Shown: one piece after another, positions 20,150 to 25,182 of the stretch
Numbering within the stretch: position 1 is the first letter of the stretch
How the letters are laid out: the number at the start of each line of letters is the position of its first letter
NCBI GenBank assembly: GCA_028865345.1
Contig: JAGWKL010000012.1
Coordinates: 1 to 51,332 of the forward strand
Origin: Candidatus Omnitrophota bacterium
GTDB taxonomy: Bacteria; Omnitrophota; Gorgyraeia; Zapsychrales; Fredricksoniimonadaceae
Length of the DNA: 51,332 nucleotides
Direction: 5' to 3'
Program-made: the position numbers and the translations under genes
The notes under the pieces: model-generated
Database searches by the model: none
Seen by the model: only the letters and a program-made list of their open reading frames with translations
Told to the model about the DNA's origin: nothing

Positions 20150-21760
20150 TCAAATGAACGGCGTCTTGCGTTTGAAGATAATGACGCCATGATTGTTGGC
20201 CCAGCCCGGCGGTTTGGTCCAGTCCCCTCCCTGGCGGACGAGGGGCGCGTAATTCTTATAGATGTAGATTGCCAGCAAAGGGCAGTAGGTCTTGCCGAAT
20301 ATCCCCAAACCTTTCTCGTCGGAAATGATGCGGTTGGACATCAGCACATAGCCGACCTTATGGCTTTCCAAGTCCTTGATCACCGAGATTTCCTGCTCGC
20401 GCGGGATGTTGATATGGTCGAAGAAGATCAATTGCCGCGTGGGACTTTCTTTTCCCGTCAAATAATAGTACAGGCAGTCGTAGGGCAGGGCGAAAAAATA
20501 GTCATTCTTTTTAAGAGTGGCGTTCAAGAATGAGGTGACCGTATTGACGGTGTTGGTCCATTGAGGTTCATTGCCGACGTAGATCTGCCCGCGCTTCATG
20601 CTCAAATAACGGAAAGGCTGTTTTTGGCTTTGGATGCTGCCGGTATGCACCACGACGCCCAATGCCACCAGCCCCCATAGGAATATGAGGACCAAAATGT
20701 TAAGGACCCTGGGAATGACGGTAAAGGCCACGGCGATCATCACAAAGTGAAAGAGGGTCTCGAAAGGCTGGGACCAATATGTCCTGTACCATACGCCGCT
20801 GACGAGAAATTCGTGGAAATACAGGACGAAGAAAATGCCGATGACCGCAAGCGCCAATAGAACATCCTGCCGGTAAGTTTTTTCCATTTTTTTGGTCGCC
20901 AGCAGATAAACGGCCAGCAAGGTGCATCCGTGCAGCACGATGCCGATGGCGACACCAACGGGCGAATGGATGAAGGTCAGCCAGTTTTGCATCAGGTAAT
21001 AAGGAATGACCAAGAGGGGAGAGGCATGGAACGGATGGTCCTGGGGCAGATAGGGCATGCACTGGCGGATGGCGTAAATAGGCAGGCCGTAAAGAAGCAG
21101 GAAGTAAATGATCGCCCAGCCCAAAGGCAGCAGAAGGTAGGTCATCCTATAGAATTTTTTCTTCTGGCCGTCGAAGGGGTATTTCTTGGCAAAATCGATC
21201 CAAATGACGCTCAGTACAAGGCCCACCAAACCGGCCAAACCGAAGTTGATCTTGACCAGACCCAGGATAAAATCAGCGATGAGCGCGATCCATAAATAAC
21301 GCCGGCCTTCCATTTTGATATAGGATAAAAGGCACCACGCTATGACTAACTCCGCGACGATGCCGCCGATATGGTTGTAGGTAAAGAAAAACTCCTGGCG
21401 GCTTTGGGTGAACCATGCGGCTGCCAGAAAAGCCAGGCCGGGGGACATCAGGCAGGCCGCTGCTAAATAAAAGAATACGGAGCAAAGGATCGCCATCAAG
21501 GCCCTGCCCAAAAGTACGCTGGTGATGTGCACGCCGAAAAGCTTAAAGAACAGGCCGTAATAATATGGCATGATGGGGCCGTACACCCACCAGAAATCCT
21601 TGTAAGGCAGTTGTCCGTGCATGACGGCATTAAAGGCATATAGATCGCGGCCATGGTCGCCCTGGGCAAGCAGCGGCTGGTAATTGAGATCAGGCCAGAC
21701 ATAAAGGACAGCTACGAGCACCGTCAAGAGCAAAAAAATACGTTTGTTGTTTAATCGCAT
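20150..21760 (-). CDS. Polytopic membrane protein, GT-C-glycosyltransferase-like (paralog A)
   Basis: QGDHGRDLYAFNAVMHGQLPYKDFWWVYGP; many TM segments; start MRLNNKR at 21760. Confidence 0.75.
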   Translation of the reverse strand: MRLNNKRIFLLLTVLVAVLYVWPDLNYQPLLAQGDHGRDLYAFNAVMHGQLPYKDFWWVYGPIMPYYYGLFFKLFGVHITSVLLGRALMAILCSVFFYLAAACLMSPGLAFLAAAWFTQSRQEFFFTYNHIGGIVAELVIAWCLLSYIKMEGRRYLWIALIADFILGLVKINFGLAGLVGLVLSVIWIDFAKKYPFDGQKKKFYRMTYLLLPLGWAIIYFLLLYGLPIYAIRQCMPYLPQDHPFHASPLLVIPYYLMQNWLTFIHSPVGVAIGIVLHGCTLLAVYLLATKKMEKTYRQDVLLALAVIGIFFVLYFHEFLVSGVWYRTYWSQPFETLFHFVMIAVAFTVIPRVLNILVLIFLWGLVALGVVVHTGSIQSQKQPFRYLSMKRGQIYVGNEPQWTNTVNTVTSFLNATLKKNDYFFALPYDCLYYYLTGKESPTRQLIFFDHINIPREQEISVIKDLESHKVGYVLMSNRIISDEKGLGIFGKTYCPLLAIYIYKNYAPLVRQGGDWTKPPGWANNHGVIIFKRKTPFI

Positions 21761-21762
21761 AT

Positions 21763-23436
21763 TTATAAAGGCACCTTTCTTTTTAGAATGCACGTCCCGT
21801 GGTTCCAAGCCCATCCGGGCTCATCTTTCCAATCACCGAAATGCACCAGCGCAGTAAAGTTATCCTCGATGTATTTTGCGATCAAAGGGCAATAGTTGGT
21901 CCCTAAAATACCCAATCCGCTCTCCTGATGGGCAAAGGCGCGGTTGGAAAGAAGGACGTAATTGACGCGGTTTTTCACGAGCTCTGCGATCACGGATTTT
22001 TCCTGGGCGGGCGGTATTTTGATGTGCTCAAAGAAGATCAGCTGCCGGGTCGGCGATTTTTTACCCGTCAGGTAATAATAGAGGCAATCATAGGGCAGGG
22101 CAAAGAAAAGTTCGCCGGGCTTAAGTGTTGTGTTCAGGTAGTTTGTGGTTTGTTCGACGGTCGTAATCCATGACGGAGAATTGGTCACGTAAATGCCGCC
22201 CCTGGGCAGGTCGAGGTAATGGCTTTTGGTCTTCATGGCACTGACCATGACCATGAATACGAACCAGCTGATTCCGAGCATGACGGCAATCAGCGAGAAA
22301 ACGGCGTAGCCGAAGGCTTTAGGGATGCTTTGCAGGGCCGCGTCGATCAATATAAAGATGATCATGATGCTCAAAGGCTGGGCCCAAAATTGGCAATACC
22401 ACACCCCGCTGGCGATGAATTCGTGGGAGTTGGCCGCGTAGAAAAGACCAAGCAGTCCCAGGGACAGCAGCAGGGCCATTCTGCGCGCCGGCGGCAGCTT
22501 ATTTTTGACGATCAGATAGATGCAGCGCAATGCGCAGGCATTGATAAGGACGGCAAATACGAGGTTCGACCATGTGGAGGTGATCGTATGCCAGGTGTTT
22601 GTGCAAAAAAAGCAGACGGCCGTCCATGGTGTTGTGTTGTAGGGATGGTCTCCGGGCAGATAAGGAAGACACTGGCGGATTTCCCTGATGGTAAGCCCGT
22701 GCAGCAGGGACCAGTAGATCAGAAAGTTTACAAGAGGAATGCCTATGACGGCCGCGGCGTAAAATGATTTCTTGGGCCTGTCGGCAGGCGTGCGGCGGAC
22801 AAAATCACAGACAGCCACGGTGATGACGCTGACGGCCAGCGCCGCCAGTCCGAAATTGATTTTGATGAGGCACAATACAAAAATGAAGGGCAGGCTGCTC
22901 CAAGGCGCTTTCGATGAACTCTTTTGTATATAAGCCAGAAGGCGCCAGGCCACGCCCAATATCATGACAAGGCCGCCGATGTGATTATAGGTATAAAAGA
23001 AATCCTGCTGAAAGAACATAAACCAGCAGGCGCCAATAAAGGCGGCCAGCGGCGAGGCGATTTCCAGCAGGCCCAGGGCCATCAAAATGCCGCCCGCGAT
23101 GCGAAGACAGAGCTTGCCTAAGATCATGCTGCTGATTTTGGTCCCGAAAATTTTAAAGAACAGGCCGTAATAATAAGGCATTAAAGGCCCGTACACCCAC
23201 CAAAAATCCTTGTAGGGAAGTTCTCCGCGGAAAACCGCCTGGGCCGCGTAAAGGTCGCGGCCGTGGTCGCCTTGTGACAGGTACTCCTGAAAATTAGTAT
23301 AAGGAGCGGCAATAATAATGCCTGCAGCCAGAACAGCCAGCAGGAGGAGGCCCGGTTTTTTCATGATCGCAGGATCCTTGGGAGTCAATGTTTCCTGTTC
23401 CTTCGACGTCATAGGGTTAGCGCCAATGCGGAGCAA
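21763..23436 (-). CDS. Polytopic membrane protein, GT-C-glycosyltransferase-like (paralog B)
   Basis: QGDHGRDLYAAQAVFRGELPYKDFWWVYGP; shares extended motifs with paralog A; exact start uncertain. Confidence 0.75.
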   Translation of the reverse strand: MLRIGANPMTSKEQETLTPKDPAIMKKPGLLLLAVLAAGIIIAAPYTNFQEYLSQGDHGRDLYAAQAVFRGELPYKDFWWVYGPLMPYYYGLFFKIFGTKISSMILGKLCLRIAGGILMALGLLEIASPLAAFIGACWFMFFQQDFFYTYNHIGGLVMILGVAWRLLAYIQKSSSKAPWSSLPFIFVLCLIKINFGLAALAVSVITVAVCDFVRRTPADRPKKSFYAAAVIGIPLVNFLIYWSLLHGLTIREIRQCLPYLPGDHPYNTTPWTAVCFFCTNTWHTITSTWSNLVFAVLINACALRCIYLIVKNKLPPARRMALLLSLGLLGLFYAANSHEFIASGVWYCQFWAQPLSIMIIFILIDAALQSIPKAFGYAVFSLIAVMLGISWFVFMVMVSAMKTKSHYLDLPRGGIYVTNSPSWITTVEQTTNYLNTTLKPGELFFALPYDCLYYYLTGKKSPTRQLIFFEHIKIPPAQEKSVIAELVKNRVNYVLLSNRAFAHQESGLGILGTNYCPLIAKYIEDNFTALVHFGDWKDEPGWAWNHGTCILKRKVPL

Positions 23437-23621
23437 AGGTTATTCTAAGGGAGGGCCTGTGGATTGTAAAGCACATAAACGCTTAATTGAAAAAATAAAT
23501 TGCGCTAAGTGGCTGTAGCGACGTCGATTAAGGGTTTAGAGAAAGCGCTTGCCTTGCCATGTTCAAAAAATGTGTTACACTTCAATCAGGTTTTAAGAAA
23601 GCGTTCTTTTCAAATAGTTCC

Positions 23622-23700
23622 GTTAACGATAAAGGCAAACCCGGAGTGATCCGGGGACGCAAAGCCGTGGATCCTTTTTTAAGGACTGCCTGGTTACCGA
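23622..23700 (+). promoter_or_regulatory. Cyclic di-GMP-I (GEMM-I) riboswitch
   Basis: AGGCAAACC-CGGAgtgaTCCG-GGGACGCAAAGCC...CTGCCTGGTTACCG matches the GEMM-I core and GNRA-capped P2. Confidence 0.92.
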
Positions 23701-23703
23701 AAA

Positions 23704-25182
23704 ATGAGAAAACTATTACAGTTGTTCATTGGCGTTTGTGTCCTTTTGGCTGGCGCTAATATCCCTCCTGCCGCCTGGGCACAAACCCCCATCATCCTTG
23801 ATCCTCAGGTATTCGATTGGCTTAAATCCAACATCAGTCCCATCACACATCTTCCGTATAGTTTTTATGTTCCCCGCAAGGACAGGTCCAAGATTTATGG
23901 GCTCATGGGATCAGCCGAAAGCGTCAAAGGCAGCATTGAAAGGATGATCACCCATGAAGGGATGGACATTTATGATGGGGCCGTCTACCAGATCGTTTTG
24001 GCCATGGCCGGAGGCCGGGATAATTTGGACCGGGCTTCCCTGGTGGACCGGTATTATTGGCAGGGGGCCGTGGGCGACACCTGGAACATCCGCGCGGGTT
24101 ATCCGATCAATACCTTTATTTATGACCCCAAACACCCTGACCGGGTGAGTTCCGATAACAACCGGTTCGGCAAGCGCGGCTTTATTTTCCGCATCATCGA
24201 TGCCGACGGCAACTATCTGGTCACAGACCCTTTGGACGGAAATAAATACCTGCCCGGATTTCCCGACGGCAGCCGCCTGCATTGGGTGGACTGGAAACCG
24301 GTGGCCGGAGAAAATGCGTGGGTGGTGATCGCCGCCATGCAGCTTTACCATAAAAAGCCCGACAGCATCGAATTGAAATTATCACAAGAGCTGGCCCGGG
24401 CCGCCATGATACTGCAAAGTCCGATCGGCGGCATCCGCATGGCGCCCCTGGGCACCGACCGGACCCTGAGCAAGGCCGAGGCTGCGTATTTCACGGCCGG
24501 TGACTGGTGGTACAATCACATATCGACGGAGAACAATATTTCCTGGTACGCGGCCTTTCGCATGCTTTACCAAATCACCGGCCAGGTCAAATACAAACAT
24601 GCGATGGAGGGCATCCAACGGTACCTGCGGTTCGTGTGGGACCCCCAACAGGGGTATTTCGCGCAAGGAGCGTATTGCATCAACGGCCGATGGGTGAAGG
24701 ACCATAAGAATTTCGCCTTGGACGTGCAGACCTGGAGCATTGCCTGCCTGGGACCTGAGAAATTAGACGCCTGGTTCGGGCCAGGCGCTGCCTGGCGCAT
24801 CTGGCAGGCAGGCCGCCGGCATTCCGGGGTTTTCGACAAGCAGGGCGGGCTTTTAGGCGTGGGCTATACGGACGAGCATGACAGGATTTCCGTTGAATGG
24901 AGCGCCGGGGCCATGGTGGCCTTGATGGAACTTTTCCGTTATTATCAAAGTACGGACCCTGCCCGGGCCGCCCGGGCGCTGCGTGACAAAGACTCCATGC
25001 GCAGGTCCATGGAAGGCCTGCATTATGATATTTCCCCGACACTTGCCGCGTACAGTTATTCATCCCGACGGGGATGGATCCCTTTTGGATGGAATTCACA
25101 CGATCCGCGGGTCATGAGCCTGGCTTCCAGCGGCTGGATGCTTTTCGTTGATGCTGGTTTTAATCCCTTTTGGCTGCTATAA
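23704..25182 (+). CDS. Secreted protein, possible alpha/alpha-barrel glycoside hydrolase-like, c-di-GMP controlled
   Basis: Signal peptide MRKLLQLFIGVCVLLAGANIPPAAWAQ; Trp/Tyr/Gly-rich repeats; directly downstream of GEMM-I. Confidence 0.6.
   Translation: MRKLLQLFIGVCVLLAGANIPPAAWAQTPIILDPQVFDWLKSNISPITHLPYSFYVPRKDRSKIYGLMGSAESVKGSIERMITHEGMDIYDGAVYQIVLAMAGGRDNLDRASLVDRYYWQGAVGDTWNIRAGYPINTFIYDPKHPDRVSSDNNRFGKRGFIFRIIDADGNYLVTDPLDGNKYLPGFPDGSRLHWVDWKPVAGENAWVVIAAMQLYHKKPDSIELKLSQELARAAMILQSPIGGIRMAPLGTDRTLSKAEAAYFTAGDWWYNHISTENNISWYAAFRMLYQITGQVKYKHAMEGIQRYLRFVWDPQQGYFAQGAYCINGRWVKDHKNFALDVQTWSIACLGPEKLDAWFGPGAAWRIWQAGRRHSGVFDKQGGLLGVGYTDEHDRISVEWSAGAMVALMELFRYYQSTDPARAARALRDKDSMRRSMEGLHYDISPTLAAYSYSSRRGWIPFGWNSHDPRVMSLASSGWMLFVDAGFNPFWLL

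Follow-up and report, generated by a model that had tools for sequence, protein, structure and literature searches.

The locus considered here raises the question of how a riboswitch could act on a gene that begins where its aptamer ends. In the window, i.e. the whole 51,332 nt stretch of DNA analysed, which comes from a genome of the phylum Omnitrophota, a c-di-GMP-I (GEMM-I) aptamer is separated by one or two A residues from ATG 23704-23706, which opens a 492-aa open reading frame. We propose that this riboswitch has probably lost its separate expression platform and acts by direct occlusion of translation initiation. The features on which the argument draws are the following.

23554..23581, forward strand: sigma-70-like promoter (TTGCCA, 16 nt, TACACT, with TG before the -10 element), from a consensus scan.
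23602..23609, forward strand: leader element CGTTCTTT, a copy of the GYTCTTT motif that is enriched 5' of Omnitrophota c-di-GMP-I aptamers.
23613..23624, forward strand: predicted 5' strand of a P1 extension (AATAGTTCCGTT), with C23621-G23622-U23623 opposite the start codon where orthologs read CAU, from held-core folding.
23625..23702, forward strand: c-di-GMP-I aptamer (RF03167 62.2 bits, RF01051 65.8 bits), its residues mapped onto Vc2 by hand.
23703..23717, forward strand: predicted 3' strand of the P1 extension, comprising the start codon and codons 2-5, paired at 23703-23706, 23708-23709 and 23712-23717, from held-core folding.
23704..25182, forward strand: putatively controlled gene for a secreted 492-aa protein with signal peptide MRKLLQLFIGVCVLLAG... 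and a predicted (alpha/alpha)6-barrel sugar-enzyme-like fold, from the open reading frame and AlphaFold.

The GEMM-I core sequence given in the original prediction was correct, and the covariance-model search with RF01051 that it had proposed recovered the aptamer at 23624-23701, well above the gathering threshold of 35 bits. A cmscan of the whole window returned RF03167 at 23625-23702 (+; gathering score 59, E 2.2e-12); the P1 core is formed by 23627-23628 with 23698-23699. Hand alignment gives G23634, A23661 and C23697 as the equivalents in the window of residues G20, A47 and C92 of Vc2. RF03167 stands for the c-di-GMP-I-GGC variant, whose consensus carries G at the A47 position. The window passes its gathering score but has A there, as do 179 of the 188 c-di-GMP-I aptamers that we sampled from the family and phylum, so that the best-scoring name is no evidence of the GGC variant and this assignment was rejected. 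The RF03167 model has matches in 163 of 191 sampled Omnitrophota genomes, up to 14 in each.

Since the three equivalents, which are ligand contacts in c-di-GMP-I aptamers (PMC11218506), are G, A and C, the possibility of cGAMP specificity, raised earlier for the G20 position, leans towards c-di-GMP, and the pocket appears to be of the ordinary c-di-GMP type. With seven GGDEF matches in the genome, beside two EAL matches, c-di-GMP is a plausible ligand. In other GEMM-I RNAs the residue at G20 affects selectivity between c-di-GMP and cGAMP. Several aptamers of the same family have A or C at this position (ATAATAGCAAAC, ATACCGCAAAC), namely L003 1501-1583 (in the window's own genome, G000:C35), G205:C2, G200:C6, G200:C21, G116:C22, G131:C46, G192:C2 and G193:C46.

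Adjacency of aptamer and gene, for which a gap of 3-4 nt had been given, held up, while the exact value is set by where the aptamer end is placed and amounts to 1-2 nt from the model end. No SD-like motif was found at -17 to -4 of ATG 23704 and no terminator between the aptamer and this codon, in line with the earlier observation that neither an SD nor an expression platform is visible there. SD-like motifs precede 24 of the 43 crude ORFs within the window, and the 16S tail of the genome carries a normal anti-SD.

The arrangement is shared by relatives. Orthologs at 66-74% identity retain both aptamer and abutment, which excludes chance; in the window and in G200, G201, G202, G203 and G204 the aptamer ends in CCGAAAAATG and the gene starts at that ATG, and the abutment is by this sequence comparison conserved within the genus. 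An aptamer upstream on the same strand is common to the genus orthologs and, at larger distance, to most of the distant orthologs; outside the clade it usually lies farther upstream, with terminator-like sequence in between. The exception within the clade is L037, where a terminator and a GGAGGGGGAGGG SD precede the ATG homologous to 23704. L037 is placed beside L036 within the clade (support 96/95) and retains CATGAACG...CGAAAAATG around its aptamer. Since the first branch, L040/G203, is already abutting, the terminator platform of L037 looks like a later gain. In G205 the ortholog of the 492-aa gene is absent.

Other rearrangements were observed among these loci. The paralog L039/L053 of G201, from the assembly to which L038 belongs, has the 3' half of the aptamer alone before its ATG (L039, about 2180-2245), the riboswitch having apparently decayed. 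Three orthologous aptamers (L040 3865-4000, L037 3745-3870 and L054, the latter in G204:C162) are enlarged by two additional hairpins, which lie at GGGGAC^GCAAAGCC between P2 and P3 of an otherwise intact core. At L037 3876-3959, L230 (G327) and L236 (G116:C22), the aptamer is directly followed by an AUG and an ORF of 23-27 codons that extends through an intrinsic terminator. Translation of the leader might in this way link the riboswitch to attenuation, although these ORFs may be due to chance.

The bases flanking P1 suggest how the abutment could be used. Directly 5' of the P1 core, orthologs read CAUUAACG, CAUGAACG or CAUUACG and the window reads CGUUAACG, while the bases 3' of the core are CGAAAAAUG. 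The triplet 5' of P1 is CAU in five genomes (G200-G204) and CGU in the window, where the CGU-AUG helix keeps one G-U pair. When the aptamer core is kept closed, folding predicts an extension of P1 in the window by 12 bp, reaching into codon 5, in which the AUG pairs upstream with a mean P of 0.83, compared to 0.14 with upstream flanks taken from other aptamers (p 0.043). Computationally, the initiation signal would therefore lie within the structure that is predicted to be stabilised by the ligand. In free minimum-energy folding, P1 and its extension are absent in most orthologs, which is why folding with a closed core was used.

We infer from this the following mechanism. Upon c-di-GMP binding P1 would close and its helix would be prolonged beyond a short A-rich internal loop; the CAU or CGU bordering the aptamer on the 5' side would then pair with the AUG bordering it on the 3' side, barring the 30S subunit from loading. 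Without ligand P1 would open and make the A-rich, SD-less CGAAAAAUGAGAAAA stretch available for SD-independent initiation, so that high c-di-GMP would turn translation off. Ligand binding stabilises the P1 helix of GEMM-I RNAs, which is in turn important for binding (PMC9262584), and an AUG located in this helix should hence be hidden when c-di-GMP binds. According to the same work, P1 of pilM forms only with ligand and Vc2 is a translational OFF switch in which P1 stability is key, while P1 signals are absent in Cd1, so that not every member of the class forms this helix. The occlusion by ligand-bound P1 put forward in the original prediction is supported and at the same time sharpened, as the predicted 3' strand of the P1 extension would be the AUG itself and not an SD. 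The AUG is invariant and cannot change in compensation, so that support for the pairing comes from conservation of the 5' side; moreover, the sequences that gave rise to the hypothesis also served to test it, with tests designed after the pattern had been seen. The evidence for start-codon pairing is therefore good but not conclusive.

Twelve of the 188 sampled aptamers (about 6%) end at most 3 nt from a credible gene start, and these fall into seven independent, unrelated loci. Pairing of the AUG at the seven loci exceeds that in swapped-upstream controls, with a combined p of about 0.001 and with single-locus p >0.1 in four of the seven. The clearest pairings are UUCAU opposite AUGAA at the response-regulator gene G205:C2 (p 0.005), whose homolog in the window genome has a terminator and an SD, and UCAUG opposite CAUGA at the gene of G185:C16 (p 0.016). 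Upstream pairing of the AUG region reaches 0.69 at abutting loci compared to 0.33 in 142 other aptamers (p 0.002), with a weaker or mild P1 extension present in other aptamers too. At seven further loci, where 7-11 nt separate aptamer and start, the RBS region shows the same excess of upstream pairing, with a combined p of 1.3e-4; at G207:C120, one of these, the leader CGUUC pairs with GAACG. With somewhat less than even confidence, we suggest that Omnitrophota c-di-GMP-I riboswitches have repeatedly dropped their platform and pair the start codon with a CAU "anti-start-codon" in a P1 extension, thereby controlling SD-less initiation, and that at related loci an SD is hidden by this extension. 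When 386 genomes were scanned with a strict pattern for abutting ATGs, 12 matches were obtained in 11 genomes, most of them short or doubtful ORFs and several running into terminators; an ATG near the aptamer was hence rejected as a sufficient criterion and credible genes were required. Genes behind Omnitrophota aptamers include pilin-like, adhesin-like and response-regulator genes.

The pairing between CAU and AUG might be incidental if the ligand-folded aptamer simply kept the 30S subunit off the AUG by steric block. The end of the aptamer lies well within the ribosome footprint, pairing of the AUG is only moderate at several abutting loci, and PMC10907184 reports translation attenuation by a direct-occlusion riboswitch whose RBS lies as much as 10 nt beyond the aptamer. 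However, the excess of pairing over both swapped flanks and other aptamers speaks against a plain steric block, as does the retention of CAU in G204, where the remaining leader has diverged and P1 is one base shorter. We therefore regard a plain steric block as unlikely.

Considerably less likely still is an ON switch, in which an alternative fold of the unliganded RNA hides the AUG and c-di-GMP frees it. It would agree with the free fold of the window, in which the AUG forms a hairpin with the coding sequence downstream of it (P 0.93-0.99), so that access to the AUG may be incomplete even without ligand. This hairpin, however, differs across orthologs, with the AUG of L038 only 4-11% paired in its free fold, and the predicted liganded fold places the AUG in P1. 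It is highly improbable that the riboswitch has no action on ATG 23704, with translation starting downstream or on a leaderless transcript from a promoter inside the aptamer: the missing SD could be read in this way, but a K/R-rich signal-peptide start, M(K/R)(K/R), follows the ATG at the same place in genus orthologs, L037 has its SD before the homologous ATG, and a promoter layout similar to that at 23554-23581 stands 5' of the orthologous aptamers as well. The neighbourhood offers no in-frame starts other than TTG codons, which would cut into the signal peptide; the alternative start considered in the original prediction is hence unlikely, and the SD of L037 confirms the start at ATG 23704.

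Occlusion of the AUG within an extended P1, the reading we prefer, has its closest relatives in known systems. With Vc2 of Vibrio cholerae (RF01051) the window shares the aptamer core, the three-way junction and the canonical G20/A47/C92-type pocket; it differs in having no separate platform and no SD, with an AUG that adjoins the aptamer and is predicted to be paired in the P1 extension. In Bc1 of Bacillus thuringiensis, SHAPE shows that c-di-GMP traps both RBS and AUG in structure (PMC11218506), but this is brought about by a platform of roughly 220 nt with two terminators, not by P1. Direct occlusion is described for preQ1-I, preQ1-II, SAM-II, SAM-III, SAM-SAH and some TPP and SAM-I riboswitches, and c-di-GMP-I is absent from the classes given in the available parts of PMC2258182 and of the 2024 review PMC10907184. 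In these classes, as described there, the start codon lies within 15 nt of the aptamer, the distance used in PMC2258182 for direct translation attenuation (1-2 nt in the window), and the initiation region is hidden by ligand binding itself. What they conceal is an SD or RBS located in the aptamer or P1, whereas in the window the element predicted to be occluded is the AUG. Direct occlusion being known already, the window is, on the predicted fold and as far as those parts of PMC10907184 go, a c-di-GMP-I member of this group in a variant form, with the AUG rather than an SD paired. The literature searched contained no description of SD-less direct occlusion in c-di-GMP-I and no paper mentioning both Omnitrophota and riboswitches. 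If true, this would be near the smallest possible riboswitch design, combining sensor and output in one helix with the start codon as switching strand, and a compact system for asking whether occluding an SD-less AUG suffices for control by a ligand. The loci also suggest a route by which terminator-based riboswitches can lose their expression platform and, apparently in L037, regain it.

The GYTCTTT motif in the leader occurs in 35 of 187 Omnitrophota aptamer leaders, mostly 8-23 nt 5' of the aptamer (20/78 leaders compared to 2.7 expected, and 15/109 compared to 2.6 expected). A general role in anti-SD pairing with a downstream SD was rejected, being unsupported over 36 loci (mean p 0.42).

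For the 492-aa product, sequence searches gave no Pfam, NCBIfam or other named family. Its AlphaFold model (mean pLDDT 70.9, low in 119-187) finds glucose/cellobiose 2-epimerases as best PDB folds (E about 1e-6), and the predicted fold is similar to that of sugar epimerases and glycoside hydrolases with an (alpha/alpha)6 barrel. Surface and polysaccharide functions are usually tied to c-di-GMP, and such a sugar-enzyme-like fold would fit them. Two similar membrane proteins are encoded side by side at 20150-21814 and 21763-23436 (-), transcribed away from the riboswitch gene, and one of them shows a weak PMT_2 glycosyltransferase match.
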